Of a stretch of DNA of 64,000 bases, positions 1 to 55,351 are shown piece by piece. This stretch comes from Lysobacter gummosus (lineage in GTDB: Bacteria; Pseudomonadota; Gammaproteobacteria; Xanthomonadales; Xanthomonadaceae), in contig NZ_CP011131.1 of assembly GCF_001442805.1 (NCBI RefSeq), forward strand, positions 4,092,001-4,156,000. Reading direction: 5' to 3'. The stretch's first letter is position 1; every line of letters starts with the position of its first letter. The notes beneath the pieces are model-generated. The model ran no database searches, had not been told where the DNA came from, and was given only the letters and a program-made list of their open reading frames with translations. Position numbers and translations under genes: made by a program.

Positions 1-3000
1 CGACCGCCGGCATAGCTCTGCACCGGCGGGCGCGGCCGGTCGGTCGGCAATTCCAGCACCGCCGGAGCACCGCGCAGCTGCTCGCGCCAGTAGTTGCTCT
101 GACGATGCAAGGTTTCGCCCTGAAGCCAACCGCGTTGCCACGCGGCGTAGTCCGCGTACTGGATCGGCAGCGGCGGCAGCGGATCGGGTTGGCCTTGGCG
201 AAATGCGTCGTACAGCGCGCTGACTTCCTGCACCAGCACGCCGATCGACCAGCCGTCGGAGACGATGTGATGCTGGGTCACCAGCAGCACGTGTTCGCTC
301 TCGCTCAGTCGCAGCAAGCGACCGCGAATCAATGGCCCCAGAGTCAGATCGAACGGTGCCCGCGCCTCTTCGCGGCTTTGCGCGGCCACCGACGCCGCCA
401 ACTCATCGGCAGACATGCCGCTCAGATCGCATTCGCTCAACGCAAAGCCGATGTCAGGTGAGTCGACCACCTGTACCGCGGCGCCGGCCTCGGTGACGAA
501 GCGCGTGCGCAGGTTTTCATGCCGCGCCACGATGCGATCCAGGCTGCCACGCAACGCCGAGCGATCCAAATCGCCGCTCAACCGCAACGCCACCGGCATG
601 TGATACGCCGCGCCCGCCGAGTGGTCGAGCTGATCCAGGAACCACAGGCGCTGTTGCGCCCACGACAGCGGCAACGCCGCGCCGCGGTCGGCCAATCCGA
701 TCGGCGACTGCGATGCACCACTTCTGCCTTGCAGACCGGCGGCCAACGCGGCCGGCGTAGGCCGCGCGAACAAATCACGCAGCGGAACTTCCAGACCCAG
801 CGATTGCCGCAGGCGCGAAGCGACCTGCACGGCCAGCAACGAATGTCCGCCGAGCTCGAAGAAGTGATCGTGACGCCCGACCTGCTCCAGACCCAGCAGT
901 TCCTGCCACACCACCGCGATCGCGCTTTCGACCTCGCCTTGCGGCGCTTCGTACTCGCGGCTCAGCACAGCGCTCTGGTCCGGCGCCGGCATGGCCTTTC
1001 GATCCAGCTTGCCGTTCGGCGTCAACGGCAGCGACTCCAGTACCACAAACGCGCTCGGCACCATGTATTCGGCCAAGCGATGAGACAAGTGTTCGCGCAA
1101 CGCGGCGCCGGATAGAACCACGCCATCGTGGGCCAACAGGTACGCCACCAGCCGCTTGTCGCCGGGCGAATCCTCGCGCGCGATCACCACCGCTTCGCGC
1201 ACGCCTTCGCACGCGGCCAGCTGGGTTTCGATCTCGCCCAGCTCGATGCGGAATCCGCGGATCTTGACCTGCGCATCGTTGCGCCCGAGGTATTCGATCG
1301 TGCCGTCGGCCAGCCAACGGCCCAGATCGCCGGTCTTGTACATCCATGCCTGCGGATCGGCATTGAACGGATCGCGCACGAAGCGCTCGGCAGTCAGCTC
1401 CGGCCGATTCCAATAACCGCGCGCCACGCCCGCACCGCCGACATGAATCTCGCCGGCCACGCCGATCGGCACCGGCTGGAGATTTTCGTCCAGCAAATAC
1501 ACCCGCGTATTGGTCATGGGCCGGCCGATCGGTACTTCTCCCGCCGGCGCGGCCGCGCCGCCGTCGAAGGCGATGAAGGTCGAGTCCACGGTCGCTTCGG
1601 TCGGACCGTACAGATTGAGCCAGCGGCAACCGCGCGTGGACGGCGCCGCGAGCCATGCGCTCAGATAGCGTCGCTCGACTTTTTCGCCAGCCACCGCGAC
1701 CAGGCGCAGATCATTGCCGGGCAAGCTGCGTCCGGCGCCGATTTCCTGCACCCACTGATGCCAGAACGCGGTTGGAAGATCGATCACGCTCAAACGGCGA
1801 TCGCGCAGGAAATCGGCGAATTCCTTATCCGGCGCGACCATGTCGGCCGAACGCAGCACCACCGTCGCTCCCGCGCACAGCGCCGGGAACAGCTCGATCA
1901 CCGAACTGTCGAACGAGAAAGTGGCGAATTCGAGCGTGCGATCCTTGGGCGTCAGCGCGTAGGCGCGGATATGCGTCAGGGCCTGGGCGACGATGCTGGC
2001 GTGTTCGATCATCACGCCCTTGGGTTCGCCGGTCGAACCGGAGGTGTAGATCACATAGGCCAGATGCCGCGATTGCAGGCCCAGAGCGCCTGGATCGGGA
2101 TCGTCGGCGTTGCCCGCATCCGCGTCCTGTCCATCCAGATCCAACATCGGCACCGTGCAATTGCGCAGCAGCGGCAAGCTGTCGCGCAAAGCGCGCTGCG
2201 TGACCAACGCCACCGGCGCGCTGTCGGCGAGCATGTACGCCAATCGTTCGGGCGGATAGGCGGGATCCAGCGGCACGTATCCGCCGCCGGCTTTCAGGAT
2301 GCCGAGCAGACCGACCACAATGTCCAGACCGCGCTCGGCGCAAATGGCGACGCGGTCGTCGGGCTTCACGCCCGATGCGATCAGCCGATGCGCCATCCGG
2401 TTCGCACGGCGGTTCAGTTCGCCATAACTGAGCGATTGGCCTTCGAATTCCAGCGCAATCGCGTTCGGATTCGCATGCACCCGGGCCTGGATCAGTTCGT
2501 GCAACAACCGGCCGCTGCCGGTTTCGGCGCGGTCGCCGTTGAGTCCTTCGACGATGGCTTGGTGTTCTACTTGCGTCAGCAGCGGCAGGTGCGCGATGGA
2601 ACTCTGATCGTCCGCGCACATCGCCGCGAGCAGAGTCGCGAAATGGCCGACATAGCGCTCCACCGTGTCGCGATCGAGCAGGTCGGTGGAAAATTCGAGA
2701 TTACCCGCGATTCCGTCGCTGCCTTCGTTGAGCGACAGCGCCAGATCGAAATGAGTGGTCGGATGCGGCGATTCCAGCGCCGCTATCCGCAGGCCGGCCA
2801 ACGACAGGCCGCCACCGCCGCCCGGCGTGTTGTTCATCGTCAGCATCGCCTGGAACAGCGGGCTGTGGCTCATGCTGCGCACCGGCTGCACGGCTTCGAC
2901 CACTTGCTCGAACGGAAGGTCCTGATGTTCGTATGCGGCCAGCGTCGTCGCTTTCACTCGCGACAGCAGGTCGGCAACGCTCGGTGCGCCCTGCATGTCG

Positions 3001-4031
3001 ACGCGCAGCGCCAGCGTGTTGACGAAGAAACCGATCAGCGGCTCCAGTTCGCGCCGCTGGCGATTCGCGACCGGGCTACCCACCACCACTTCCGACTGAC
3101 CGCTCAGACGCGACAACAACAGCGACCAGCCGGCCAGCAGGGTCATGAAAATGGTCGTGCCGTGGCGTTGCGACAAGCTGCGCAGCTGCGCGCTCAAATC
3201 GCTCGACAGCCGAACCGGGACCCGGTCGCCTGCGTAACTTTGCACGGGCGGGCGCGGCCGATCGGTCGGCAACTCCAGCACCGCCGGAGCGCCGCGCAAC
3301 CGCTCGCGCCAATAGTTGCTCTGGCGTTGCAGGGTCTCGCCCTGCAGCCAGCCGCGCTGCCACGCCGCGTAATCCGCGTACTGGATCGGCAGCGGCGGCA
3401 ACGGATCGGATTTGCCCTGGCGGAAAGCTTCGTACAACGCGGTGACTTCCTGCACCAGCACGCCGATCGACCAGCCGTCGGAGACGATGTGGTGCTGGGT
3501 CACCAGCAGCACGTGTTCGTGTTCGCTCAGACGCAGCAAGCGACCGCGGATCAGCGGCCCCTGGGCCATATCGAACGGAGCGCGCGCCTCTTCGCGGCTT
3601 TGCGCTCTGATCGCCGCGGCTTGTCCATCGGCCGACAGGCCGCGCAGATCGGATTGATTCAAGGCGAAACCGGTGTCGGCCGGATCGATCATCTGCACCG
3701 GAGCGCCGGACTGGCTGACGAAGCGGGTGCGCAGGTTTTCGTGGCGCGCGACGATCCGGTCGAGGCTGCTCCGCAACGCGGACAGATCCAACTCGCCGCT
3801 CAGCTGCAAGGCCACCGGCATGTGATAGGCGGCGCCGGCGGAATGATCGAGCTGATCCAGGAACCACAGGCGTTGCTGCGCCCACGACAGCGGCAGCGAC
3901 TGGCTGCGATCGGCATGCGCGATCGCATCGCGCGCTTCGCGCTCCGCCGCGCCGGCGGCGGCGCGCTGCTTGAGCCGGTTCAGCAGGATGCTGCGCTTGA
4001 GCTCTTCCAGCGACTCGCTGCTCTTACTCAT
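1..4031 (-). CDS. NRPS4, non-ribosomal peptide synthetase, 3' part missing at the left edge (C-A-PCP-C...)
   Basis: About 1,343 codons are visible, reading without a stop to the window edge. Order: an N-terminal helical segment ([20 protein letters not shown]) that looks like a docking helix; an LCL-type condensation domain with HHIVSDGWS near residue 180; an adenylation domain with [10 protein letters not shown] near 662; a carrier domain with [10 protein letters not shown] near 1060; and a second LCL-type condensation domain (HHIVSDGWS near 1255) that runs off the window. The adenylation pocket residues, aligned by eye to GrsA, read D-S-I-D-A-A-L-V-D-K. I cannot match this to a known substrate. 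It shares the DSxD start with module 1. The start codon overlaps the end of NRPS3 by 8 bp, so translation is probably coupled. This protein would add residue 9 and at least one more. Any thioesterase must lie left of the window. Being an NRPS is certain; the substrate is not. Confidence 0.96.
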
Positions 4032-7000
4032 TGACCGACTCCCGCTTCAGGATTTCCAACAATTCCTCTTCCGAGAGACCGTCGAGTTCGTCTTCCATGT
4101 CCTGCAGCTCATCGCCGAGGAACTCCATCATCTGCTGGGCCCTGACCGCGTCGGCCAGCACGTGCAGAACCGGTTGTTCGAACAGACCGCGCAGTGGCAC
4201 GTCTACGTGGAATTTCTCGCGCACACGCACCATCAACTGCATTGCCAGCAGCGAATGGCCGCCGAGTTCGAAGAAGTGATCGTGGCGGCCGACTCGCTCA
4301 AGGCCCAGCAGGTCTTGCCAGATCTCGGCGATGGCGGTTTCGATCTCGCCTTGCGGGGCTTCGTATTCGCGGCTCAGCACCGCGCCCTGATCCGGTGTCG
4401 GCAGGGCTTTGCGGTCCAGCTTGCCGTTCGGAGTCAGCGGCAATGCGTCCAGCGCGACGAAAGCGCTCGGGACCATGTACTCGGCCAAGTCCTTCGATAG
4501 CGATTCGCGCAATGCGGCCACCGACAGTTCGAGACCGGGTTCCATGACCGCATAGGCCACCAGGCGCTTGTCGCCTTCGACGTCTTCACGCGCGATCACC
4601 ACTGCTTCGCGCACGCCATCGCAGGCGACCAATCGTGCTTCGATCTCGCCCAGCTCGATGCGGAACCCGCGAATTTTGACCTGGAAGTCGTTGCGGCCCA
4701 GGTACTCGATCGTGCCGTCGGCCAACCAGCGGCCCAGGTCGCCGGTCTTGTACATCCGCGCCTGCGGGTCGGCGCTGAACGGGTCGCGGACGAACCGCTC
4801 GGCCGTCAGCTCGGGGCGATTCCAGTAACCCCGCGCTACTTGGACGCCGCCCAGATGCAACTCGCCGACGACGCCGACCGGTACCGGTTCGCCGCGCGCA
4901 TCCAGCATGTACACCGGCGTATTCGCGATCGGCCGGCCAATGACCGGTCCGCCCGCCGCTTCGCGAATGCTGCCGATCGTCGCGTCCACCGTGCATTCGG
5001 TCGGACCGTACATGTTGTGGAAGTGGATGCGCTTCGAATCCCGCAACTGCGCCCACAGCTTCGGGCCGATAGGTTCGCCGCCCAGCAATACGCTGACCGG
5101 GCGATGGCCCTCGCCTTCCAACAGCCCTGCGGCCAACAAGCCTTCGAGTTGCGAAGGCGTGCTGTCCAGCGCGTCAATCTTCTGCGCTTCGATGAACTCC
5201 AGCATCGCCGGACCGCTGGCGCGGATCGACTGCGGGATCGGCAGCACGCAGTGGCCCGACAGCAGCTGCAGCAAGCCCTTGAGCGACATATCAAACGCGT
5301 AAGCCGCGTTCAAGCCGATCCGCGAACCCGGAGCCACTTCGCGATGCGTAGTCGCCTGCATCGCCCGCCAGAAGTTCACCGGCGAGCGATGCTCGATCAT
5401 CACGCCCTTGGGCTGACCGGTCGAACCGGACGTGTAGATCATGTAAGCCAAGTGCGTCGAATTCAGCGCCACCGAAGGCGCCTGCTCCGATTCCTGCGCC
5501 AGCGTCGCGTCTTCCAGCTCGATCACCGGTACCGACAACGAACCCAGCAACGGTCGCACCGACGCCTGCGTCACCAAAGCCATTGGCTGACTGTCTTGCA
5601 GCATGTAACTTAGGCGATCGAGCGGATAGCTCGGGTCCAGCGGAACGTAACCAGCCCCCGATTTCAGGATGCCGACTAGACCGACCACCATCTCCACGCT
5701 GCGCTCGACGCAGATCGCCACGCGATTATCGGGCTTCACGCCCAAACCGATCAGACGATGCGCGACTTGATTCGCCCGGCGATCCAGCTCGGCATAACTC
5801 AGCGTCACCCCTTCATACGACACCGCCGGTGCGTCCGGCGTCCGCGTGACCTGGGCCTCGAACAGCTCCACCAGCGTTTGATCGTGCGACTGCGCATCCA
5901 CCGAATTGAACTCGCGCAAGACCGTCTCGCGCTCGGCCGCGGGCAGAATCGGCAGTTCCTGCAGCGCTTGCTGCGACCCATCCTCCAGCGCCGACAACAA
6001 CGACGCCAACGCCTGCTCCATGTACCGCACCAGCCGTTGCGGATCGATTCCCGCCACCGCCAGCACCGTCAATCCGAACGCTTCGCCCAGATCCTCCACC
6101 GACATCGTCAGCGGATAGTTGTTGCGCGTATCGCCACCGATCAGCCGCATGCCGCTCCACGCCTGCATCGCCTGCGCGCTGTCTTCCGGCGTCGCCGCGT
6201 GACCGTGGCGGTAGTTCAGCAGCGACGTGAACAACGGCAGCGGCGCCTGCACGCCGCTGCAACGCTGCGCCAGCGCCAGCGACGCCTGTTCGTGCTCCAG
6301 CAGTTCGCTCAGCTGCGCATACACCTGCGCGATCGACGCCGGTACGTCATGGCTTAACCCGATCCGGATCGGCAAGGTGTTCAGGAACATGCCGACGACC
6401 TGGTCGGCGCCTTCCGATCCCTGCAGACGGCCCGACAGCACCGTACCGAACACGACATCGTCCTCGCGGCCGCTGCACTGACCCAGCACCCGCGCCCAGG
6501 CGACGTGGAACAGCACCGCCGGGGTTACGCCGCGGCGACGCGATGCGTCCCGGATCGCACGGGCCATCGCCATCGACAGCGACAATCGCGCTTCTTCGAC
6601 CTGCTCGCCGTCGTTCTGTACGTTCAGTATTCCGAACGGCGCCGTTGGCTCTTCTACCGATTCCAGTTGCGCGCGGAAATAAGCTTCGTGCTCGTCGTCG
6701 GCCACCGTCTGCATCTGAGCGATGAAATGACGGTACGCCCGTGCCGGCGGCAACACACCGCCGCTGAGCAGGGTCTGGATCTCCGACAGAATCAGGTCCA
6801 TCGCCACGTGGTCGCAGACCAAGTGGTGGCGCAGCAATGCCAGCAGCCATTCGCCGCTGGCGGCATCCTGGGCGATGTACCCGCGCAGGACCGGCGCCTG
6901 GCTCAGGTCCAGCCGCATGCGACGCGGATCTGTTCGCTCCAGCAGTTGCGGCAGTGCTTCTTGCCGCGGATCGACCGCGATCGACTCGATGGGCAGCGGC

Positions 7001-10000
7001 GCTTCGCGATGCACCACTTGCACTGGCCGCGGCAGGCCCTGCCAGCGCACCGAGCTGCGCAGGATGTCGTGACGCGCGATGACCTGTTGCAGCGCGGTCA
7101 GGAACAGGTCGAGGCGCTCGCGGCTATCGAACGCGACCACCGATCGCATCAGGTAGGCATCGCCTTCGCGGTCCTGTTCCAACAGGTGATGGAACAGGAT
7201 GCCTTCCTGCAACGGCGCCAGCGGGTAGATGTCCTGGATGTTGCTTACGCCACCGGGCACTGATTCGACGATCCCGTCGATCTCGTTCTGGTTCAGCGCG
7301 ACCAGCGGCAGCAGATCGGGGGTGAGGTGCGTCGTCTGTTCCGTGATCGGGTTCGCCGCCGCTTCGGCCGTAGCCGCCACCGGTTCGCAGGCCAGTTGTT
7401 CGGCCAGCGCTCGCAGCATCGGCGTGGTGAATACCGTGCGTACGTCGGTCGAATAACCCCGCTGGCGCAGGCGTTCGATCAGGCCGATCACCAACAAGGA
7501 GTGACCGCCCAGTTCGAAGAAGTGGTCGTGGCGGCCGACTCGCTCAAGGCCCAGCAGGTCTTGCCAGACGTCCGCGATGGCGGTTTCTATCGCGCCCTGT
7601 GGGGCTTCGAAGGCCCGACTCAGGACCGCACCTTGATCCGGAGCCGGCAGCGCCTTGCGATCCAGCTTGCCGTTCGGGGTCAGCGGCAGCGATTCCAGCG
7701 CGACGAACGCGCTCGGGATCATGTATTCGGCCAAGTCCTTCGATAGCGCGTCGCGCAAGGAAGCGACCGACAATTCGACGTCCGACGCCATGACCGCGTA
7801 GGCCACCAGGCGCTTGTCGCCTTCGACGTCTTCGCGTGCGATGACCACCGCTTCGCGTACGCCATCGCAAGCGACCAGCCGTGCTTCGATCTCGCCCAGT
7901 TCGATGCGGAAGCCACGAATCTTGACCTGGAAGTCGTTGCGGCCCAGGTATTCGATCGTGCCGTCGGCCAGCCAACGGCCCAGGTCGCCGGTCTTGTACA
8001 TCCGCGCTTGCGGGTCGGCGTTGAATGGGTCCCGGACGAACCGCTCGGCCGTCAGCTCGGGACGATTCCAGTAACCGCGCGCCACCTGCACGCCGCCCAG
8101 GTGCAACTCGCCCACGACGCCGACCGGCACCGGTTCGCCGCGCGCATCCAGCACGTACACCGGCGTATTCGCGATCGGCCGGCCAATCACCGGTCCGCCC
8201 ATCGCTTCGCGGATGCTGCCGATCGTCGCGTCCACCGTGCATTCGGTCGGGCCGTACATGTTGTGGAAGTGGATTCGCTTCGAATCCCGCAACTGCGCCC
8301 ACAGCTTCGGGCCGATGGGCTCGCCGCCCAGCAGCACGCTGACGGGGCGATGGCCCTCGCCTTCCAACAGCCCCGCGGCCAACAAACCTTCGAGCTGCGA
8401 AGGCGTGCTGTCCAATGCATCGATCTTCTGCGCTTCGATGAAGTCCAACATCGCCGGACCGCTCGCGCGGATCGACTGCGGGATCGGCAGCACGCAGTGG
8501 CCCGACAGCAGCTGCAACAAGCCCTTGAGCGACATGTCGAACGCGTAAGCCGCGTTCAAGCCGATCCGCGAACCTGGGGCCACTTCGCGATGCGTAGTCG
8601 CCTGCATCGCCTGCCAGAAGTTCACCGGCGAGCGGTGTTCGATCATTACGCCCTTGGGCTGACCGGTCGAGCCCGACGTGTAGATCATGTAGGCCAGATG
8701 CGTCGAATTCAGCGCCACCGAAGGCGGCTGTTCCGATTCCTGCGCCAGCGTCGCGTCTTCCAGCTCGATCACCGGCACCGACAACGAACCCAACAACGAC
8801 CGCACTGAAGCCTGCGTCACCAACGCCATCGGCGCGCTATCGGCCAGCATGTAGCTCAATCGATCCAGCGGATAGCTCGGGTCCAGCGGAACGTAACCAG
8901 CCCCCGATTTCAGGATGCCGACCAGACCGACCACCATCTCCACGCTGCGCTCGACGCAGATCGCTACCCGATCATCGGGCTTCACGCCCAAGCCGACCAG
9001 ACGATGCGCGATCTGATTCGCGCGGCGATCCAGCTCGGCATAACTCAGCGTCACGTCTTCGTACGATACCGCCGGTGCGTCCGGCGTCCGCGCGACCTGC
9101 GCGGCGAACAGTTCCACCAGTGTCTGATCATGCGGCGACGCATCTACCGAGTTGAACCCGCGTAGGATCCCCTCACGCTCCGGCGAAGGCAGAATCGAAA
9201 ACCCCTTCAGCGCTTGCGAATTCCCACTCTCCAACGCCGCTAACAACGACGTCAGCGCCTGTTCCATATACCGCACCAGGCGCTGCGCATCGATCCCCGC
9301 CACCGTCAGCGCGGTCAGGCCGAACGCCTCGCCCAGATCCTCCACCGACATCGTCAGCGGATAGTTGTTGCGCGCCTCCACGCTGATCGACCGCATTCCG
9401 TTCCAGGCTCGCGCCGCAGCCTCGATCTCTTCATCGCTGGTAAGTGCATTGCTGTGGCGGTAGTTCATTAGCGCGGTGAACAGTGGCAGCGGCGGCTGCA
9501 CAGCGCTGCAGCGCTGGGCCAAAGCCAGCGACGCTTGCTCGTATTGCAGCAACTCGACCAGGCGCTGATGCATCTGCCGCACGGCCTGAGCCGCATCGAT
9601 ATCTGCCAGCGACAGCCGCACCGGCAAGGTATTGATGAACATGCCGACGACTTGGTCGGCGCCTTCCGACCCCTGCAGGCGACCCGACAGAACGGTGCCG
9701 AACACGACATCCTCGCGGCCGCTGCATTGCGCAACCACCTGCGCCCAGGCGACATGGAACAATACCGCCGGCGAAACGCCGCATCGCCGCGACGTATCGC
9801 GTATTCCCAGCGCCAACGAAGGTGCCAAGCCGATACGCGCCTCGCTGACCAGATCGCCGTCGCCCTGCACGTTCAGGATTCCGAACGGTGCCGTCGGTTC
9901 GTCCACCGCGCCCAGTTGCTCGGTGAAATAAGCCTCGTGCCCGCTCATGTCCATCGCGTGCGTCCGCGCGATGAAGCTGCGGTACGGCATCGCGGGCGCG

Positions 10001-13000
10001 AGCCGGTCCTGCTCGCCGCGCAGCAACATCTGCACTTCCTTGAGCAGCAGCTGCAGCGAATAGTTGTCATCCACCATGTGGTGGTTAAGCAAGGCCAGCA
10101 GCCACTCGCCGTTATCGCGATCCTCGGCGATGTACGCACGCAGCAAAGGCGCGCGGCGCAGGTCGAAGCGAACGCGGCGCGGATCGGTTCGCTCAAGCAG
10201 CTGCGGCAGCGCGTCCCGGCTCTGATCCAGAGTCAACGCTTCGACCGGCAACGGCGCTTCGCGATGCACTACCTGCACCGGCCGCGGCAATCCTTCCCAA
10301 TGCACCGACGTGCGCAGAATGTCGTGACGCGCGATCACTTGCTGCAATGCCGCCAGGAACGTGTCCAGCCGTTCGCGGCCGTCGAATGCCACCACCGAAC
10401 GCATCAGGTAGGCATCGCCCTCGCTGCCGTGCTCCAGCAGATGGTGGAACAAGATGCCTTCCTGCAACGGCGCCAGCGGGTAGATGTCCTGCAGATTTCG
10501 CACACCGCCGGGAACCGAATCGACGATGCCGTCGATCTCGTCCTGGCTCAAGGCGACCAGCGGAAGAAGGTCGGGCGTGATGCGCGTGGTTTCCGGCGTG
10601 ATCGGATTGGCCGCGACCTCATCGGTTGCCGCGACCGGACCACCAGCCAGTTGCTCGGCCAACGCGCGCAGCACCGGCGCGGTGAACACGGTGCGTACGT
10701 CGGTCGAATAGCCGCGCTGGCGCAGCCGTTCGATCAATCCGATCACCAGCAGCGAATGCCCGCCCAGCTCGAAGAAATGATCGTTGCGGCCTACTTGCTC
10801 CAGACCCAACAGGTCCTGCCACACCGCCGCGATCGCGATTTCGATCTCGCCGACGGGTTCCTCGAAGACACGGCTCAACACCGAATCGCGATCCGGCGCC
10901 GGCAACGCCTTGCGATCCAGCTTTCCGTTCGGCGTCAGCGGCAGCGACTCCAACGCCACGAACGCGCTCGGCACCATGTACTCGGCCAGATCGCGCGACA
11001 ATGACTCGCGCAGCGCCGACACCGACAGTTCGACATCTGCGTCCATCACTGCGTACGCCACCAGACGCTTGTCGCCGGGCACGTCCTCGCGCGCGATCAC
11101 CACCGCTTCGCGCACGCCGTCGCAGGCCATCAGCTTGGCTTCGATCTCGCCCAGCTCGATGCGGAAGCCGCGAATCTTCACCTGGAAATCGTTGCGCCCC
11201 AGGTATTCGATCGTGCCGTCGGACAACCAGCGACCCAAGTCGCCGGTCTTGTACATCCGCGCCCGCGGATCGGCGCTGAACGGATCGCGCACGAAGCGCT
11301 CCGCGGTCAAATCCGGGCGATTGAGATAGCCGCGGCCGACTTGAACGCCGCCGATAAACAGCTCGCCCGCCACGCCCGCGGGCGCGGGTTCGCCTCGCGC
11401 ATCGAGCACATACATGCGCGTATTCGCGATCGGCCGGCCGATCGGAACGCGGCCGGCGTGCTGCTGCGGATCGCAGCGCCAATAGGTGACGTCCACGGCC
11501 GCTTCGGTGGGGCCATACAGATTATGCAGGCTCGCCGTCGGCAATTTCTGCAGGCAACGCTGTTGTAGCGCGTACGGCAGCGCCTCGCCGCTGCACAACA
11601 CTTGCCGCAGGCTGCCGCACTCGGCGGGGGCGATCTGTTCCAGGAACACTTGCAGCATCGACGGCACGAAATGAACGACGGTGATCGCCGCCGAATCGAT
11701 GATGTTCGCAAGGTAATCCGGCTCCTGATGTCCCAGCGGCCGCGCCATCACCAATCGCGCGCCCGCCAGCAGCGGCAGGAAGAATTCCCACACCGATACG
11801 TCGAATCCGAACGGCGTCTTCTGCAGCACGCGATCCGACGCGGTCAGCTGGAACTGCGATTGCGCCCACAGCAGGCGATTGACCACGCCCCGGTGTTCGT
11901 TCATCGCGCCCTTGGGCTGACCGGTCGAGCCGGAGGTGTAGATCACATAGGCCAGATGGCGCGAAGTCAGCTTCAGCGCAGCGGCATCGGGATTGGCATC
12001 GGACTGATCGGCCCACAAGCCGGCATCGCTGTCCAGACACCACACCGGGCGCGCACCCGACTCGGGCAAGCGGTCGCGCAGACTGTGTTGGGTCAGCAGC
12101 GCCACCGGCGCGCAATCGGCGAGCATGTAGTTCAACCGCTCGGGCGGATAGCTCGGATCCAGCGGCACGTAGGCGCCGCCGGATTTCAGAATGGCGAGCA
12201 GGCCGACCACCATCTCGATGCTGCGTTCGATATGGATAGCCACCCTGTCGTCGGGACGCACGCCGGCCTGGATCAGATGATGGGCCAGTCGATTGGCGCG
12301 ACGGTTGAGCTCGCCATAACTCAGTTGCTCGCCTTCGAACTCCAGCGCGACCGCATCCGCCCGTTGCGCAACTTGTACTTCGAATAGACGATGTACGGTC
12401 TGGTCGAGATCGAAATCGGTATCGGTGGCGTTGAACGTTTGAAGCAACCGCTGACGCTCGCTGTCCGGCATCGCCTTGAGGCGGCACACGGCGCGCTGCG
12501 GTTCTTCGCGCAGCGCTTGCAGCAGGGATTCGACCGCGGTCTCCAGATATCCCGCCATGCGGTCGGGATCGATACCCGCCGCGCATTGCGCGGTCAGGCC
12601 GAAACCATCGCCCCAATCCTCCACCGCCATCGTGATCGGATAATTGGTGCGCTCTTCGCCACCGATCAGGCGCACGCCGGACCACACGTCGCTAGCCGCG
12701 GCGTCCGAAGGCTGTTTCGGCGCGTGGCTGTGGCGATAGTTCAGCAGCGTCGTGAACAACGGCAACGGCGCCTGCACGCCGCTGTTGCGCTGGGCCAGCG
12801 CCAGCGATGCCTGTTCGTGCTGCAACAGTTCGGCCAGGCCGCGCTGAGTCGCCCGCACCGCTTCGATGGCCGGGGCTTGATTCAGATCGATCCGGATCGG
12901 CAGCGTGTTGATGAACATGCCGACCACTTGGCCGCTGTCGGTGGCCTGCAAGCGTCCGGACAGCACGGTGCCGAACACCACCGCTTCGCGCCCGCTGCAC

Positions 13001-14024
13001 TGCGCCAGCACCCGGCCCCAGGCCAGATGGAACAATGCCGCCGGCGAGACGCCGAGACGGCGGGCGCTGGCGCGCAGCTCCGTCGCCGTCGCTTCGCTGA
13101 AGACGCGCTTCGACTCTTCGACGGCATCGCCGCTTCCCTGCACGTCCAGCACATCGAAAGGCGCCGTCGGCGTATCGATATCGCCCAGGCGCTCGCGGAA
13201 ATAGGCTTCGTGGTGATCGGTCGAAACCGCCTGGGTGCGGGCGATGAAGTTGCGGTACGGCTGCGGTGCCGGCAGATCGCGCTCATCGCCGCGCAGCACG
13301 ACGGCCACTTCAGACAACAGCAACTCCATGGTTACGTGATCGCACACCATGTGATGGCGCAGCAGGCTCAGCAGCCATTCGCCGTTCGCAGGGTCGGCCA
13401 CGATGTACGCCTCCAACAGTGGAGCCCGGCGCAGATCCAATCGGGTCTGGCGCGGATCGGTCTGCGCCAGCAGATACTGCATGGCGTCTTCGCCCGCCTC
13501 GCACTCCAGCTCGTTGACCGGCAGCGCCGCTTGACGATGCACGACCTGCACCGGCTTGTTCACGCCTTGCCAGCGCACGGCGCTGCGCAGGATGTCGTGA
13601 CGCGCGATGACCTTCTGCATGGCGACGACGAAGGCATCGAGGCGCGCGCGGCTGTCGAAGGCGATCAGCGAGCGCAGCAGATACGCGTCGGCCTCGCCAT
13701 CGAGCAGGTGATGGAACAGGATGCCTTCCTGCAACGGCGCCAGCGGGTAGATGTCCTGGATATTCGCCACGCCGCCCGGGACGCTATCGACGATGCCGTC
13801 GATCTCTTCCTGCGACAACCGCACCAGCGGCAACATCTCCGGCGTGATCCGCGCTGCGGCCGCCTCGTCCGGCAGGACCGCCAACAGCGCGGCCTTGTGC
13901 TCCTTGAGCAAGGCCAGCAATTCGGCGGTCATGACGCCGCGCGCCGCGCGCACGACCAGTTCGCCGGCGCTGGCATGTACGGAAATGTTGTTCTCGCGCA
14001 GTCGGGCGAGCACATCCTGTGGCG

Positions 14025-14028
<4 letters not shown>
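4024..14028 (-). CDS. NRPS3, three-module non-ribosomal peptide synthetase (docking-C-A-PCP-C-A-PCP-C-A-PCP)
   Basis: 3,334 residues. Residues 1-60 look like a TubC-type N-terminal docking domain. Three C-A-PCP modules follow. All three condensation domains start with PLAPLQEGILFHHLL (near residues 98, 1188 and 2273), the look of dual epimerisation/condensation domains. Their second histidine motifs are HHMVCDH, HHMVDDN and HHLVCDH. Adenylation TSGSTG motifs lie near 698, 1783 and 2866, and carrier GGHSLL motifs near 1089, 2174 and 3256. Pocket codes read by eye are DVWHLSLVDK (matches Ser) and twice DMKDLGMVDK (closest to Glu/Gln codes as I recall them, 8 of 10). The C-terminus carries an acidic tail with DELDGLSEEEL, as in NRPS1. 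The start overlaps the NRPS2 stop as ATGA. Positions 5618-9066 are an exact copy of 18811-22259 in NRPS2. It should add residues 6 to 8 of the peptide. Confidence 0.98.
5618..9066 (-). repeat. Exact 3,449-bp duplicate, copy in NRPS3
   Basis: Every stretch that I compared is identical to 18811-22259 (offset 13,193). The first mismatches outside it are at 5617 and 9067. It covers, in coding direction, most of one adenylation domain, a carrier domain, a dual-type condensation domain and the start of the next adenylation domain. Confidence 0.93.
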
Positions 14029-23831
<9,803 letters not shown>

Positions 23832-23889
23832 GACATCCCTATCAGGTGATTCGTAAAAACGGAGGGGTGTTAACAGACTCGATCGCGGC

Positions 23890-30381
<6,492 letters not shown>

Positions 30382-30404
30382 CCCGAACGCCTCAGTTCGC
30401 CAAG

Positions 30405-30671
30405 TTATGCCGTCGTCGCAGCGGATTCTTCGGCGCGCTCGCCGAACTGGCTATCGAGATATCCGGCCAACTCGCGGATATTCGGATAATCGAACAACCA
30501 CTCCAGTTCGATCTCTACTCCAAGGTCGTCCTGCAAGGCGCGGGTCAACCGCAGCCCCATCAGCGAATCCACGCCCTGCTCGGCGAACGATTGTTCCACC
30601 GATATCTGCGCAGGCTCGATCTGCATCACGTCCGCCATCGCATTCCTGAGCCACTGCTCGCGATTACTCAT
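30405..30671 (-). CDS. Stand-alone acyl carrier protein
   Basis: 88 residues. The phosphopantetheine attachment site is GVDSLMGLRL, with the Ser in DSL near residue 36. It is followed by the ELEWLFDYPNIRELAGYL helix pattern typical of PKS/FAAL-type carriers rather than of the NRPS carrier domains here ([10 protein letters not shown]). It sits between the fatty acyl-AMP ligase (49 bp upstream) and NRPS1 (23 bp downstream) on the same strand. Its likely job is therefore to accept the activated fatty acid and pass it to the starter condensation domain of NRPS1. A G-rich run (GGGGG) 5 nt before ATG may serve as ribosome site. The call is firm; the partner relation is inferred from gene order. Confidence 0.93.
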   Translation of the reverse strand: MSNREQWLRNAMADVMQIEPAQISVEQSFAEQGVDSLMGLRLTRALQDDLGVEIELEWLFDYPNIRELAGYLDSQFGERAEESAATTA

Positions 30672-30720
30672 CCCTGCCCCCGAACTGTTCCAACACGCCC
30701 GCCGACACGCGGGCGAACCT

Positions 30721-32370
30721 TCAAACTTCTACCGCGGGCTCCCACACGCCCGCGAGGTAATCCATCCGGCATTGCGCGCGCCGGACCTTGCCGCTGGACG
30801 TGCGCGGCAGACTGCCCGGCGCGATCAGCACCACTTCCGACAGCGGCAAGCCGTACGCCGCACTGACGCTGGCGCGCATCGCGCGCGCGACCTCGTCCCA
30901 CTCGGACCGGCGGCGCAGCCATTCGCGCTTGAGTTCGAACACGACCACCACCGACTCGCGTCCACCGTCTTCGATCGAGAACGCCGCGCCGCCCGCCTGA
31001 CGCAACGCGCCGTGGCTGCGCTCGCATTCGTGCTCGATGTCCTGCGGCGCGTACTTGCGCCCGCTGACGATGATCAGATCCTTGAGTCGTCCAGCGATGT
31101 AGAGCTGATCGTCGCTGATGAAACCCAGATCGCCGGTGCGCAGATAAGCCTCGTCGCCGCCTTCGATGCGGGCGCCGAAAATCCGCGCACTGAGCTCCGG
31201 CCGTCGCCAATAACCTCGCGCAACGCTTGCGCTGCTGACCCAAATCTCGCCGACCTCGCCGGCGCGCACGCGCAGCTGCGTGTCTGGATCGACGATTTCG
31301 AGCCGAACGTCTCCGCGCACATGGCCGCAGCCGACCACCCGCGCGCCCTCGCGATGCGCGAACCGCGGCGCCTGCCCGACCGAGGTGCCGGTGATGAACA
31401 GCGTCGACTCGGCCATGCCGTAGCACGGATAGAACGCGCCCGCGTCGAAACCGTAAGCGCCGTAGCGATCGCCGAAGCGTTCGATCGTGCTCGCCTTGAT
31501 CGGTTCGGCGCCGCAGAACGCCACCCGCCAACACGACAGATCGACGCCCTGCAGTTGTTCATCGCTGACCGAGCCGGCGGCCAGTTCGTACATGAAATTC
31601 GGACCGCCGCTGACGGTCACGCGGTATCTGGAAATGATCTGCAGCCAGCGCTCGGGGTACTGGACGAACTCCGCCGGCGACATGAATCCGGCCGAACAAC
31701 CCGAGTACATCAGCTGCAGTACGCCGCCGACCAACCCCATGTCGTGGAACAGCGGCAAAGCGGTAAAAAGTACCGAATCGGCGCTGATTTCCATCGCTTC
31801 CCGGATCGACGCGCAGTTGTCGATCAGGTTGCCGTGGGTGACGATCACGCCCTTCGGATCGCCGGTCGATCCGGAGGTGTATTGAAGGAACGCCGGCGCA
31901 TCGGCTTCGGGCGAAACCGGGCGCCATGGCTCGGCCGAGCTCACGAACGCATCCGACGGTTCGCGCAAGTCGATCTTGATCAGCGCCTCGCCGCCTTCGT
32001 GCAATTCCGCCTGCAGCAATTCGTCGGCGTCGAACAATAGCGCGCGCGCCTGCGCGTCGCCGACGATCAACTGCAAGCGGCTCTGCAACACCTGCCGGCG
32101 CGGCGGCGCGGTCGGCACCGCGACCACGCCGGCCAGCAAACATGCATAGAACGCCTCGACGAATGTCGCCTGCGATTTGCACACCAGCACCGCGCGCTCA
32201 CCGCGCAAGCCCATCGCCTGCAACCGCTGCGCCAGCGCGGACGAACGCCGCCATAATTCGCCGAAGCTGAGGTCTTCCGGGATCAGCGAAGCGCCCTTGA
32301 AGAAGCGGCATGCGATTCGATCGGGCTGCGAAAGCCCTCGCTCGTGCACGATATTGGGAAAAGTCGACAT
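30721..32370 (-). CDS. Fatty acyl-AMP ligase (FAAL)
   Basis: 549 residues from the ATG at 32370. An upstream ATG at 32430 would add 20 residues, but the stretch MSTFPNIVHERG looks like the true family start. AMP-binding motifs seen: YTSGSTGDPKGVI, GMAESTLF, RTGDLGF and a C-terminal region with GRLKDLIIVSGRKYAPQDIE, a pattern usual for FAALs that load acyl carrier proteins. Enzymes of this family make acyl-adenylates from free fatty acids and transfer them to a carrier protein, without CoA. The candidate ribosome site (AAGGAG) is about 12 nt from ATG, slightly long. It is the first gene of the minus-strand operon and should supply the lipid tail of the peptide. Chain length and hydroxylation cannot be read from the sequence. 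Confidence 0.95.
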   Translation of the reverse strand: MSTFPNIVHERGLSQPDRIACRFFKGASLIPEDLSFGELWRRSSALAQRLQAMGLRGERAVLVCKSQATFVEAFYACLLAGVVAVPTAPPRRQVLQSRLQLIVGDAQARALLFDADELLQAELHEGGEALIKIDLREPSDAFVSSAEPWRPVSPEADAPAFLQYTSGSTGDPKGVIVTHGNLIDNCASIREAMEISADSVLFTALPLFHDMGLVGGVLQLMYSGCSAGFMSPAEFVQYPERWLQIISRYRVTVSGGPNFMYELAAGSVSDEQLQGVDLSCWRVAFCGAEPIKASTIERFGDRYGAYGFDAGAFYPCYGMAESTLFITGTSVGQAPRFAHREGARVVGCGHVRGDVRLEIVDPDTQLRVRAGEVGEIWVSSASVARGYWRRPELSARIFGARIEGGDEAYLRTGDLGFISDDQLYIAGRLKDLIIVSGRKYAPQDIEHECERSHGALRQAGGAAFSIEDGGRESVVVVFELKREWLRRRSEWDEVARAMRASVSAAYGLPLSEVVLIAPGSLPRTSSGKVRRAQCRMDYLAGVWEPAVEV

Positions 32371-33016
32371 GCCGTCTTCCCGCTCCTTCCTTGGTTGTGC
32401 GGTCGCACCTGTCAAGCCCGCCCGGCACATTCAGCTCGCGCTAAATGCGACACAGGTCGCTACTCGTTCAGGCTTAGCCCCCAGATCGGCGCGCTCGATA
32501 TATCACGCGCAAAACTTGCTAACCGCTTCGAGGTAAGTTATCCATATGTCGCACAGAAAGGAAGCACGCATGTACGGAAATGTGATTCATCGCAGTGTTC
32601 ATTGCCATGCACTATCACACACATATAGAGCATCGGATCGCAGTCAGTTGTTGATGTGTCACGCAGATGTTGCATTCGGCGAAATTTGAATCACGCTACG
32701 ATCACGTAGCATAGCGTCTCGGAAACCGTGCATCGTTGATGAGTGCCACAACGCCATCATGAATTTGCCACGCAGGCAGGGATATGCCGCTACTACATCT
32801 CCTCGCCGTCGCAAGAACTGATACCACCGGCACGCGACCGGATTGCGCAGGGGAGGCGCATCGCAACTCATGAATTCATTCCACTTCGACATGAGTCGTC
32901 GCCTCGCGCGCGCGTGCGGCGGCGTATGGCCGTCGCTTCGGCGCTGATCCGAACGCGTCCCGCGCGAACTTCGCCCACCTTTATTAATTGTCGTTACGCG
33001 ACACCGGTCCGACCTC
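32371..33016. promoter_or_regulatory. Divergent intergenic region between the NRPS operon and the acylase-exporter operon
   Basis: 646 bp with no convincing gene and visibly richer in A/T than its flanks between about 32490 and 32720. Promoters for both operons should lie here. On the minus strand a TGATATAT stretch around 32498-32506 could be an extended -10 for the lipopeptide operon, but no good -35 accompanies it. Plus-strand signals for the acylase are not clear. A short perfect inverted repeat is at 32695-32710. A small ORF can be drawn across 32743-33198, but it has no family features and overlaps the acylase start. Confidence 0.5.
32695..32710. repeat. Perfect inverted repeat GCTACG-ATCA-CGTAGC
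   Basis: Six-base arms separated by four bases, in the centre of the divergent intergenic region. It could be an operator or a small hairpin. There is no T-run next to it, so it is not an intrinsic terminator. The link to regulation is inference from position only. Confidence 0.4.
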
Positions 33017-35485
33017 ATGAGATTGCCGATGTACTTGCGCAGCCACCCACTGACCGCACGACTGATCGTGTTCGTGCTGTTGCCGCTGCTGGGTTGCGCG
33101 TTGTGGATGTGGAGCAACGTCAGGAACAGCCTTCCGTCCGAGGGCACGATCCAGATCACCGAAGGCGTCGGCGCGCCGGTCACGCTGTCGCGCGATGAGC
33201 ACGGCGTCGTGCACGTCAGTGCCGGCAATGACCGCGACGCGTTCTTCGCCATCGGCTATGCGCAGGCGCAAGACCGCTTGTGGCAACTGGAGTTGCAGCG
33301 GCGCATGGCGCGCGGCCGGCTCAGCGAGGTGCTCGGCAAGGACAGCATCGACGCCGACGTTCTGTTCCGCACGCTGGGTCTTTACGAATCGGCGCGATCG
33401 GCCTGGCCGGCCTTGAGCGCGCCGGCGCGGGCCTCGCTCACCGCCTACACCGCGGGCATCAACGCCAGGCTGGCGCACACCGCGCAACTGCCGGCGGAAT
33501 TCCGCATTCTCGGCGTGAAGCCCGAGCCGTGGACCGAGATCGATTCGCTCGCCTGGATCAAGGTGTTCGCGCTGGACCTGGGCGGCAACTATCGTCGCGA
33601 AATCGATCGCTTTGTTGCCCAGAGCGCGCTGACGCCGGAGCAGGTCGCGATCTTCTTTCCGGAGTATCCCGCGCAGGCGCCGACCACGGTCGCTTCGGTC
33701 GAACAAGCGCAAAGCCTGCTGGCGATGGCCGATTCGCAGCACGAGCTGCAAAGCAAGCTGCGCCTGGCCGCGCCCAACACCGGCAGCAACGCCTGGGCCG
33801 TCGCCGGCCGGCATACCGCCGACGGCGGCGCCCTGCTCGCCAACGATCCCCACCTGGGCCTACAGATTCCGTCGCTGTGGTATGCGATCAGCGTGGACAC
33901 GCCGACGCTCAAAGTCTCCGGCATGAGCCTGATCGGCCTGCCGGTGGTGGTGTTCGGCCGCAACGCACAGATCGCCTGGGGCGGCACCAACATGATGGCC
34001 GACACCCAGGACCTGTTCTTCGAACGCGCCGACGCGAGCGGAGCGAACTACGAGACCGACGGCGTCTGGCAACCGTTCCAGGTGCGCAGCGAAGTCTTCA
34101 ACGTCCGCGCCGACTTCCCGGAAAAGCTTCGTCGCCAGTACGCGCCGGTGACGCTGCAGGTGCGCAGCAGCCGCCACGGGCCGATCATCAGCGATCACTT
34201 CAAGGTGTTCGACCAACCCGTGGCGCTGCGCTGGACCAGCCTGGACGCGGCCGATACCAGTTACGAAGCCTTCTTCCGCATGAACTATGCGCGCGACTGG
34301 AACGAGTTCAAGCAGGCCTTGAGCCATCACGTCGCGCCAGCGATGAACATGCTCTACGCCGATCGCGCCGGCAACATCGGCTATCTCGGCGCAGGCCGCA
34401 TTCCGGTGCGCAGCCGCGGCGAAGGCACTATCCCCTCGCCCGGCTGGGATTCCAGCTACGGTTGGTCCGGCGAAGTGCCGCCCACGCAATGGCCGCAGGC
34501 GTACAACCCGCCGTCGGGTTACCTGGTCAGCGCGAACAACCGCGTGGTCGGCGAGGACTATCCCTATTTCGTCTCGCACGACTGGGCTTCGCCGGCGCGG
34601 GCGCAACGCATCGAACAACTGTTGCGGCAACGCATCGGCTCCGGCCGCAAACTTGTCGCCGAGGATATGCAACGCATCCAGGCCGACACCGTCGACCTGG
34701 ACGCCGCCGCGATGATGACGCGTCTTCGCGAGCGCTTGCCGCAAGGCGAGCACGGCGCTCAGGCTGCCACCTACCTGCGCGGCTGGAACGGCGACATGCG
34801 CGCCGACAGTCAGGCCGCGAGCATCTTCCACGTGTGGATGCAGCATTTCCGCAGCACCTTGTTCGCCGATCAGCTGCAGGGCACCTGGAACAACCCGCAA
34901 CGCACGCGCCTGCTGCGACGGCTCGGCGATAGCGTGCGCCTGGAGCGGCTCGGCCGCTTGATCCAGGACGACCCGACCGGCTGGTGCGACAACCGCGACA
35001 CGTCGCGACGCGAAACCTGCGAGCAGGCGCTGGCCAGTTCCCAGGCCAGCGCCCTGGATGAACTGCACAAACTGCGAGGCGGCTGGAGCATGCGCGACTG
35101 GCAGTGGGGGCAAGTGCAGAAGACCGTGTACACGCATATCCCGATGAGCGCCATGAAGCCTCTGGACAAGGTGTTCGAGCGCCGGATCGGCAACGGCGGG
35201 TCCAGCAATTCCATCAACGTGGCCTCGTCCAACTTCGCCTACGCCGACGGTTACCTGCAGGACTTCGGCGCGGGTTTTCGCCAGGTGATCGCACTCAGCC
35301 CCAGGCAGGTGACGCATTGGTACATGAATTCGACCGGGCAATCGGGTAATGCGATGAGTCCGCACTACGACGACATGGTCGAACCGTTCCGCGATGTCCG
35401 CTATTACCGTTTGCGCACCTCCGCCGACGGTGCCCTCCCCGCGCCGAACACCGCTTCGATGGCGGCGGCAGGAGCCAGCCGATGA
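33017..35485 (+). CDS. Penicillin acylase family protein (Ntn hydrolase), PvdQ/acyl-amide hydrolase type
   Basis: 822 residues. The N-terminus has a basic start and a hydrophobic segment (LIVFVLLPLLGCALWMW, about residues 16-32), so it is exported or membrane-anchored in the periplasm. The family's self-cleavage and catalytic site is visible as NTGSNAWAVAG. Ser257 would become the N-terminal nucleophile of the beta chain, leaving a beta chain of about 566 residues, usual for the family. Further family motifs: DRLWQLELQRR and ANDPHLGLQIP. Members hydrolyse amide bonds of acylated substrates (penicillins, acyl-homoserine lactones, the acyl chain of pyoverdine precursor). Its stop overlaps the next start as ATGA, coupling it to the exporter. 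Its place next to an acyl-initiated NRPS suggests deacylation or other trimming of the lipopeptide. No clear ribosome site precedes ATG 33017 or the in-frame ATG 33029. Confidence 0.92.
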   Translation: MRLPMYLRSHPLTARLIVFVLLPLLGCALWMWSNVRNSLPSEGTIQITEGVGAPVTLSRDEHGVVHVSAGNDRDAFFAIGYAQAQDRLWQLELQRRMARGRLSEVLGKDSIDADVLFRTLGLYESARSAWPALSAPARASLTAYTAGINARLAHTAQLPAEFRILGVKPEPWTEIDSLAWIKVFALDLGGNYRREIDRFVAQSALTPEQVAIFFPEYPAQAPTTVASVEQAQSLLAMADSQHELQSKLRLAAPNTGSNAWAVAGRHTADGGALLANDPHLGLQIPSLWYAISVDTPTLKVSGMSLIGLPVVVFGRNAQIAWGGTNMMADTQDLFFERADASGANYETDGVWQPFQVRSEVFNVRADFPEKLRRQYAPVTLQVRSSRHGPIISDHFKVFDQPVALRWTSLDAADTSYEAFFRMNYARDWNEFKQALSHHVAPAMNMLYADRAGNIGYLGAGRIPVRSRGEGTIPSPGWDSSYGWSGEVPPTQWPQAYNPPSGYLVSANNRVVGEDYPYFVSHDWASPARAQRIEQLLRQRIGSGRKLVAEDMQRIQADTVDLDAAAMMTRLRERLPQGEHGAQAATYLRGWNGDMRADSQAASIFHVWMQHFRSTLFADQLQGTWNNPQRTRLLRRLGDSVRLERLGRLIQDDPTGWCDNRDTSRRETCEQALASSQASALDELHKLRGGWSMRDWQWGQVQKTVYTHIPMSAMKPLDKVFERRIGNGGSSNSINVASSNFAYADGYLQDFGAGFRQVIALSPRQVTHWYMNSTGQSGNAMSPHYDDMVEPFRDVRYYRLRTSADGALPAPNTASMAAAGASR

Positions 35486-53573: not shown

Positions 53574-53576
53574 TTT

Positions 53577-53921
53577 ATGAATTTAGAAGCAGAGTTTTTC
53601 GTCGAAGAGGTCATGAAAGATAGGTCAGGCCGGCCTGTCTATGTTGGAGTTCCTAATCAAGGGCGTGGCGTTCGTGTGGGAGATAAATTCATCCTGCGAT
53701 ATGAAGTGCCACGCACACTGGACGATGCGCTTAATGACCGCCCTAGAGCAGAACCCGTAAATCAGCGAAGTGTGGCGCTGACAGTTACGGCAATTGATTC
53801 GATGAGGAAGTTAATTCAAGAGTTGCCCTTGGGAGTGACTGGGGCTCTGTACCTTGAGGGTGACGGAATCGAGCATGTAGGCAAGAGAACTTTTCTGAAA
53901 ACATCAGACTCGATCTCATAA
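53577..53921 (+). CDS. Candidate immunity protein for the Rhs toxin
   Basis: 114 residues, no recognised family, no signal peptide and no membrane segment, so cytoplasmic. It starts 3 bp after the toxin stop, with GGGGG about 8 nt before ATG lying inside the toxin's last codons. This is the standard place for a cognate immunity gene. Base composition is lower in G/C than the Rhs core and similar to the toxin tip, which suggests that both travelled together. The C-terminal part (LPLGVTGALYLEGDGIEHVGK) is predicted beta-rich by eye. The role is inferred from position only. Confidence 0.7.
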   Translation: MNLEAEFFVEEVMKDRSGRPVYVGVPNQGRGVRVGDKFILRYEVPRTLDDALNDRPRAEPVNQRSVALTVTAIDSMRKLIQELPLGVTGALYLEGDGIEHVGKRTFLKTSDSIS

Positions 53922-54088
53922 CGAAGACCGGGATACCCACTTTCTTCTAGTGGCTAAAAAGCACCCCAACGCCCAGCACCGCCGGATGTTGTCGGTTGAG
54001 CGCGTCGATGTCAGTGTACTGTCCGCTGGCCGAATGGCCTTCCCCCTTCGAATTTCCGCTCTTTTTTTTTGCGCGAGCCCCCTCGGAT
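53922..54088. other. Non-coding gap between immunity gene and insertion sequence
   Basis: 167 bp. It holds a run of nine T residues (54062-54070) preceded by a short GGCC-GAAT-GGCC palindrome about 25 nt earlier, too far apart for a standard terminator. A 64-codon ORF can be drawn at 53950-54144, but it runs into the insertion sequence and shows no family features. It may be the remnant of a displaced toxin or immunity cassette. Confidence 0.4.
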
Positions 54089-54105
54089 TGTCACCTCCCC
54101 GTAAA
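54089..54105 (+). repeat. Left terminal inverted repeat of the IS3-family element
   Basis: TGTCACCTCCCCGTAAA; it matches the right end at 16 of 17 positions. The preceding GGAT is the left copy of the target duplication. Confidence 0.88.
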
Positions 54106-54160
54106 CTCACTCCAGCAATAACTAGAGGTCTCCAGGCAAAATAGCCCAAAGGAGACTGAA

Positions 54161-54427
54161 ATGCGCAAGAGCAAGTTCACTGAGAGCCAGATCGTCACGG
54201 CGCTGAAGCAGGTCGAAGGCGGGCGCCAAGTCAAGGATGTCTGCCGCGAGTTGGGCATTTCCGAAGCAACGTACTACGTGTGGAAGTCCAAGTACGGCGG
54301 GATGGAAGCGGCGGATGTGCAACGGCTGCGGGATCTGGAAGCCGAGCACAACAAGCTCAAACGTATGTACGCCGAGCTGGCGATGGAAAACCATGCCTTG
54401 AAGGATGTCATCGCAAAAAAGCTCTAG
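54161..54427 (+). CDS. IS3-family transposase OrfA
   Basis: 88 residues. An N-terminal helix-turn-helix ([17 protein letters not shown]...[21 protein letters not shown]) is followed by a leucine-zipper-like helix ([33 protein letters not shown]). It binds the element ends. It terminates at TAG just after the A6G slippery site. Most OrfA is made by normal termination, while the fusion OrfAB is the active transposase in this family. Confidence 0.93.
54415..54421 (+). promoter_or_regulatory. Programmed -1 ribosomal frameshift site (A AAA AAG)
   Basis: The heptamer A-AAA-AAG is in the correct phase with orfA, three codons before its stop. A -1 slip enters the orfB frame ([12 protein letters not shown]). 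This is the classical control element of IS3-family transposition. Confidence 0.85.
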
Positions 54428-55286: not shown

Positions 55287-55351
55287 GGATCCAATATCAA
55301 CGACTGTCGAAAACGGCAGTCGCTCTCCGTCTTGGAAATATCAAAGGAGGT

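Follow-up and report, generated by a model that had tools for sequence, protein, structure and literature searches.

WAP-8294A, WBP-29479A1, lysocin, lysobactin and tripropeptin are all peptides that are made by nonribosomal peptide synthetases (NRPS) of Lysobacter, and surveys count further NRPS clusters in this genus. In the sections available to us, Bierman and Walker (2024) reported uncharacterised Lysobacter clusters of 5, 10, 12, 14 and 17 modules, each in more than one genome (PMC11451712), and De Bruijn and colleagues reported three unknown clusters in L. gummosus (PMC4657364). Outside the genus, the highest-scoring named relatives of the first adenylation (A) domain that is described here are Xenorhabdus synthetases, two of them named XpsB in the database, which are probably PaxB and PaxC of the PAX lipopeptides; the PAX peptides are Lys-rich acyl heptapeptides according to the available text of PMC12542672. 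In this study, we analysed a window of 64,000 nucleotides from L. gummosus (bases 4092001-4156000 of the single 6,056,618-bp contig NZ_CP011131.1) and the NRPS cluster in its left half, which is likely an uncharacterised 12-module acyl-peptide line of Lysobacter with the predicted order acyl-X1-Ser-D-Glx-Glx-D-Thr-D-Ser-D-Glx-Glx-X9-Ser-D-Thr-X12-TE, where Glx stands for Glu or Gln and TE for a terminal thioesterase.

The genes for a fatty acyl-AMP ligase (FAAL)-like protein, an acyl carrier protein (ACP) and the four synthetases N1-N4 are all on the minus strand. The window contains modules 1-9 and the beginning of module 10, and the remainder of the 12-module line is left of base 1, in a stretch that was fetched separately (L031; window coordinate = L031 coordinate minus 17000). 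The genes of the cluster are as follows:

30721..32430, minus strand: FAAL-like fatty acyl-AMP ligase, putative starter activation (PF00501 236.6 bits, PF23024 27.7 bits)
30405..30671, minus strand: free-standing ACP, 88 aa (PF00550 70.4 bits)
23890..30381, minus strand: NRPS N1, 2163 aa, modules 1-2 (Pfam domains, pockets)
14025..23831, minus strand: NRPS N2, 3268 aa, modules 3-5 (Pfam domains, pockets)
4024..14028, minus strand: NRPS N3, 3334 aa, modules 6-8, N-terminal TubC_N docking domain (Pfam, pockets)
4031 to window -9768 (in the window 1..4031), minus strand: NRPS N4, 4599 aa, modules 9-12, then TE (Pfam, pockets)
L031 6468-7331, outside the window, minus strand: thioesterase behind N4 (PF00975 170.8 bits)
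L031 5459-6418, outside the window, minus strand: TauD oxygenase behind N4 (PF02668 147 bits)
L031 4250-5440, outside the window, minus strand: amidinotransferase behind N4 (AGAT 1jdw, E 6.5e-119)
L031 3492-4181, outside the window, minus strand: HalD/BesD-family oxygenase behind N4 (PF23169 165.5 bits)
33017..35485, plus strand: penicillin-acylase-family N-terminal nucleophile (Ntn) hydrolase, 822 aa (PF01804 719.7 bits)
35482..37329, plus strand: cyclic-peptide-type ABC exporter, 615 aa (TIGR01194 384.3 bits, cut-off 286.2)

According to the Pfam domains and the pockets, the condensation-adenylation-thiolation modules are complete and a terminal TE is present. The acylase gene is divergent from the FAAL gene and is overlapped by the exporter gene. 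The first-pass annotation had recognised the lipopeptide line within positions 1-32370, an interval that reaches neither the linked genes for acylase and exporter (33017-37329) nor anything before base 1; it had passed over the FAAL/ACP starter, the divergent acylase, the peptide exporter and the TauD, amidinotransferase and HalD/BesD-family genes. Its suggestion of a lipopeptide is nevertheless supported, because the FAAL-like ligase, the ACP and a divergent first condensation (C) domain fit acyl priming. The ligase is over the cut-off in Pfam, and the NCBIfam fatty-acid--AMP ligase models match it with up to 391.6 bits, which is below their curated cut-offs. The C domain of module 1 (C1) is an outlier in the C-domain tree, and this place, together with its motif, suggests the starter class.

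With a typed gramicidin synthetase fragment as the reference and Lys517 assumed, the pockets of all 12 A domains gave the following codes and predicted residues:

Module 1 (N1): DSVDVGTVYK, X1, Lys-like
Module 2 (N1): DVWHFSLIEK, Ser
Module 3 (N2): DMKDLGMVDK, Glx
Module 4 (N2): DMKDLGMVDK, Glx
Module 5 (N2): DFWNVGMVHK, Thr
Module 6 (N3): DVWHLSLVDK, Ser
Module 7 (N3): DMKDLGMVDK, Glx
Module 8 (N3): DMKDLGMVDK, Glx
Module 9 (N4): DSIDAALVDK, X9, Lys-like
Module 10 (N4): DVWHFSLIEK, Ser
Module 11 (N4): DFWNVGMVHK, Thr
Module 12 (N4): DGFVMAFVAK, X12, aromatic clade

The pockets agree with the order X1-Ser-Glx-Glx-Thr-Ser-Glx-Glx-X9 that had been proposed for the window, and with the observation that the code at modules 3, 4, 7 and 8 shares 8 of 10 positions with DAKDLGVVDK. 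The earlier count of two Ser and one Thr holds for the portion in the window, but modules 10-12 raise it to three Ser and two Thr in the full line. In an A-domain tree of 68 rows and 126 columns, which are few, so that the resolution is not fine, the repeated code grouped with DAKDLGVVDK, DSKDLGVVDK and DAQDLGVVDK domains at 98/97, which bears out its Glu/Gln-like reading. The Ser and Thr domains grouped with their counterparts from the lysobactin locus (99/96 and 98/93), the X12 domain, which has a long branch, with Phe/Tyr-type domains (100/98), and the X1 and X9 domains with Lys-type domains of Xenorhabdus (98/91). The Lys reading of these Xenorhabdus domains follows from taking the proteins to be PaxB and PaxC, as their size, module number and codes suggest.

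The stereochemistry was approached through the C domains. C4, C6, C7, C8 and C12 have the common start IYPL.PLQEGILFHHL and group at 100/100 with SQ_4 and with LYS_2 and LYS_7, which are C2 and C7 of the lysobactin locus and the only 2 of the 11 C-type domains read there that belong to this dual condensation/epimerisation group. LYS_2 and LYS_7 follow residues 1 and 6 of lysobactin, which we take to be D-Leu1 and D-Arg6. Because the five domains group with C domains that follow D residues in lysobactin, the tree predicts D residues at positions 3, 5, 6, 7 and 11. Low PF00668 scores had been considered as a mark of domains that join an L residue to an L residue; the tree and the lysobactin control reversed this idea. 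The lysobactin-type locus additionally has an extra, very divergent C-like domain (LYS_9, genome 2734516-2735844; branch length 2.52) directly after the C domain of its Thr module.

The four identical Glx codes have to be read together with the repeat structure of the cluster. Modules 3-4 and 7-8 have 4,897 bp in common at 98.0% DNA identity, and the Thr regions of N2 and N4 form a further pair of 3,995 bp at 94.3%. Within the former, a tract of 3,449 bp is repeated exactly:

18811..22259: copy in N2 (A3 to A4)
5618..9066: copy in N3 (A7 to A8)

We read these tracts as recently homogenised in this lineage, because they are exact here, whereas the two tracts of the related genome G014 are only 92.3% identical to each other and only 1,082 of 1,149 residues over the tract are identical between N3 and its counterpart P0159 from another Lysobacter (P0159 has 188 differences over the whole protein, the same number as N3 of G014). 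The four codes are thus not four independent observations; the Glx repeat appears to stem in part from recent homogenisation, which weakens the count of four copies.

None of the Lysobacter peptides named above matches this line. Differing residue orders led us to reject lysobactin, WAP-8294A2, WBP-29479A1 and lysocin E, the orders of the latter three being those given in the available part of a review, in which tripropeptin has 8 modules as compared with 12 here. The earlier statement that the product is not WAP-8294A, lysobactin, tripropeptin or lysocin therefore stands. Lysobactin, moreover, has its own locus in this genome (L033/L034, genome 2.71-2.75 Mb), where 10 of the 11 A domains were read and gave the order Leu-Phe-Leu-Leu-Arg-Ile-Thr-Gly-Asn-Ser for modules 2-11, the first A domain being outside the fetched stretch; in the available part of PMC4657364, lysobactin was reported only from L. 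gummosus among five strains. There are 31 condensation-domain matches in the whole genome, 12 of which are in the present cluster. Another NRPS (L032, 4.905-4.922 Mb) has the pockets DLYNNALTYK (three times), DMENMGAVDK and DAGDMGHVCK. When residues 440-1000 of N1 were used as a query, the best 120 of 7,986 matches comprised one at 98%, which was named only NRPS [Lysobacter], and then mainly Xenorhabdus enzymes at approximately 50-53%, with others up to 60%. The PAX synthetase code DTSDIG[ST]V[IT]K shares D278, G301 and V330 with the X1 code; however, the PAX synthetases have 7 modules, mostly for Lys, whereas here only X1 and X9 of 12 modules are of the Lys type. No characterised product that matches the cluster was found in the papers and databases searched, and a literature search for the string DMKDLGMVDK gave no matches. 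This is the sense in which the line is new, as the surveys already count unknown NRPS clusters. Because these include clusters of 12 and 14 modules, with which the present line and a 14-module line in a related genome fit by module number alone, the cluster is probably one of the listed orphans. The review PMC9581180 also has, in its available part, an entry of 11 modules that is labelled 'novel'.

A comparison with 20 genomes of the genus, including its own, showed that the frame of the cluster is shared by few of them. A FAAL relative of at least 68% was found in four genomes, i.e., its own, G014 (95%), G001 and G002 (68% each), and the acylase was found in the same four (96% in G014, 65% in G001 and 64% in G002), adjoining the FAAL gene divergently with the exporter alongside in all of them. 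In three further genomes, which lack such a FAAL, the acylases reach 48-49%, and the remaining 13 have only acylase paralogues of 30-34%. G014 matches the cluster at 90.8% over 18,110 bp and 90.4% over 14,355 bp and retained all nine of its readable codes. For N3, the one of the four NRPS genes that was tested, dN was 0.029 and dS 0.369 against G014 (dN/dS about 0.08), which indicates purifying selection. In the single-contig 5.77-Mb genome of G001, the order of the 14 A domains is different; DSVDVGTVYK occurs once among them and DMKDLGMVDK three times, and DAQ- and DMK-type domains are used within one line. This 14-module line looks to be at the same locus, since TauD and then DUF5916 follow in both genomes. 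Between the ACP and the NRPS, the G001 cluster has genes for a homoserine dehydrogenase and an alpha/beta hydrolase (L075:341-2933), which hints at a homoserine-type residue; its A domain at 1844890 has an unreadable, long-branch pocket.

Behind N4, in the order thioesterase, TauD oxygenase, amidinotransferase and HalD-family protein, are the putative tailoring genes. The amidinotransferase was named by neither Pfam nor NCBIfam above the cut-off and was identified by a PDB search (AGAT, HsvA and SxtG). Residues 43-395 align with the AGAT-type enzymes and retain their Cys, His and Asp motifs, which we take to be those of the catalytic residues; a homoarginine-forming gene is reportedly part of the microcystin pathway of Fischerella. 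The HalD-type protein is, by the Pfam HalD profile and alignment, of the same family as the HalD/BesD halogenases and a related lysine hydroxylase (7jsd, 9oet). It has HYD where the halogenases have HWG and the hydroxylase 9oet has HWD, i.e., the H-x-D motif of the hydroxylases and not the H-x-G motif of the halogenases. As the pocket neighbours are AHYDDYPL here and WHWGDYSF in the halogenases, the substrate may differ. Among the 56 relatives listed, its own sequence included, the motif is GAH[YF]DDYP in 48, GGHFDDHP in five, and GAHLDDYP and WHWDDYS in one each, one having no such motif; H-x-G-D occurs in none of the 56, even though the database names some of them 'HalD/BesD family halogenase'.

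Both genes are rare. Of the 297 family genomes and the 398 order genomes, one in each set has the HalD-type gene, and the matches elsewhere in 398 phylum and 369 class genomes were of 41% identity or less. The amidinotransferase was found in 1 of the 20 genus genomes and in 14 of 369 class genomes, its own included, with the others at 52% or less; a scan of genome contigs gave two loci at 48-50%. Linkage outside this genome was judged from equal longest-contig values and from locus tags: six exact equalities were found between the amidinotransferase and HalD-type lists (120 x 56), compared with about 0.4 expected, and four fell to the top 20 amidinotransferases (0.1 expected), while the other two, which have ranks 71 and 75, could be coincidental. 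Additionally, the pair has the near-consecutive locus tags ABW123_23810 and _23815 in a metagenome-assembled genome of Cystobacter. The two genes look like a linked pair, and no paper that links such a pair to a lipopeptide was found in the literature searched.

The following course would fit these genes, each chemical step being a prediction from gene content. The FAAL would activate a fatty acid and load the ACP, C1 would join the acyl chain to the Lys-like X1, and N1-N4 would build the remaining chain, which the TE may release as a lactone or an acid. The amidinotransferase and the HalD-type hydroxylase may jointly convert a Lys-type amino acid into a hydroxylated guanidino residue (e.g., hydroxyhomoarginine) for module 9, while the TauD enzyme may hydroxylate another residue. 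Export would fall to the ABC transporter, after which the acylase may strip the peptide of its acyl chain. For the linear peptide without an acyl chain, with Lys as X1, Phe as X12 and Glu at the repeated sites, the calculated [M+H]+ is 1401.64 if X9 is Lys, 1417.63 if it is hydroxy-Lys, 1443.66 if it is homoarginine and 1459.66 if it is hydroxyhomoarginine; a lactone would be lighter by 18.01, and a C12:0 chain would add 182.17. Signals at m/z 1720-1840 are mentioned in PMC4657364, in a passage that gives no strain name. That the acylase deacylates the finished peptide has a little less than an even chance of being correct. It has Ser257 at the expected chain start, as the N-terminal Ser of the beta chain, and a hydrophobic N-terminus. 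According to the available text of PMC10587159, an Ntn acylase of the glidonin producer, GdnD, deacylates finished lipopeptides; the gdnD gene is far from its cluster, whereas the acylase gene here adjoins the FAAL gene and encodes a distant relative of PvdQ. In its boldest form, our proposal is that an undescribed two-gene cassette makes a free hydroxylated guanidino amino acid, e.g., 4-hydroxyhomoarginine, which module 9 would build into a polyacidic lipododecapeptide, that this product would lose its acyl chain after export through the acylase of the cluster and mature to a non-lipidated peptide, and that the cassette would have been gained or lost as a unit at an otherwise conserved locus, with modules reshuffled and homogenised between Lysobacter species; taken as a whole, this is doubtful.

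Several observations weigh against our reading of the cluster as a whole. The closest solved chain of the acylase is a D-succinylase, PvdQ being distant, and the acylase reaches only 76.1 bits against the curated PvdQ model, whose cut-off is 950. In the C-domain tree behind the predicted D pattern, there may be mutual attraction between the dual-type group and GL_C1, which is a long row. G014 has no match to the amidinotransferase, the HalD-type protein, the TauD oxygenase or the N4 tail; an assembly gap is likely, because one and the same repeat terminates both of its NRPS contigs, with loss as the alternative. G001 has neither the amidinotransferase nor the HalD-type gene despite having the exact X1 code. 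The X1 code therefore does not need the cassette, the idea of X1 as a guanidino residue was dropped, and the link between X9 and the cassette was reached by elimination. Moreover, position 239 is Val or Ile in the X1 and X9 codes, but Glu in most of the Arg codes of one survey. That the cassette supplies the X9 building block is accordingly a tentative suggestion. It has a somewhat more probable competitor, to which we give nearly even chances, in which the lipopeptide line is the same but has plain Lys/Orn-type residues at both X1 and X9; the pair would then produce some other small molecule, or would be carried along between TauD and DUF5916 as a passenger. The absence of the pair from G001 and the place of both X domains near Lys-type domains agree with it, as does the lack of a described link in the literature; however, the X9 code DSIDAALVDK is absent from the 14 domains read in G001, and the pair is directly behind the NRPS, TE and TauD genes.

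As regards the repeated residue, Lys239 suits a side-chain carboxylate, and the joint use of DAQ- and DMK-type domains in the G001 line suggests two different residues, which together make Glu the rather likely choice. If it were Gln, which we consider unlikely though worth weighing, the peptide would be neutral to cationic and not acidic; the clade mixes Glu-type and Gln-type codes, with DAQ- and DAK-type domains side by side, and DAQDLGVVDK takes both residues according to the available part of the survey PMC12283262. A siderophore with a pyoverdine-type maturation, in which an acyl peptide loses its acyl chain in the periplasm after export, would explain why an acylase, a TIGR01194 exporter and a TauD oxygenase occur together, but it is very unlikely, as none of the 12 codes is of a hydroxamate, catechol or Asp type and no ligand-forming enzyme or TonB receptor was seen among the open reading frames (ORFs) scanned beside the cluster, which were not all of those present. 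Equally improbable is a decaying, non-functional cluster: G014 without any of the downstream tailoring genes sought and the lack of a product in the literature searched would suit it, whereas the frames of FAAL and N1-N4 are open and the dN/dS of N3 is low.

In the surroundings, we treated two features to the left of the cassette, a DUF5916 gene and a sigma-70-like ORF, as flank. A scan of 32300-33100 for promoters and terminators found none, and nothing reached the Rfam gathering threshold in 81,100 bases. The right part of the window has the following features:

38832-53573, plus strand: giant protein of 4,913 aa that combines RHS repeats with He_PIG immunoglobulin-like domains
54280-55269, plus strand: transposase with rve and rve_3 integrase core domains, directly behind the Rhs gene
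59824-63999, minus strand: giant protein of a surface type that runs off the window end and contains DUF7507, Big_9, cadherin-like and OmpA domains

The GC content drops to 0.554 in 52001-56000, at and behind the end of the gene for the giant RHS-repeat protein.

What is added here to the surveyed orphans is anatomy, i.e., the cassette, the linkage of acylase and exporter, the D pattern, the homogenisation and the sister locus. For an uncharacterised acyl peptide of a biocontrol genus, any biological role of which would be a matter of prediction, the analysis provides a complete predicted sequence together with the D pattern and the mass range. The linkage of a rare HalD-type hydroxylase subfamily to amidinotransferases may provide a testable route to hydroxylated guanidino amino acids. 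Furthermore, the shared frame of FAAL, acylase and exporter, with module sets that differ in related species, would make these loci a natural series for NRPS module duplication and homogenisation.

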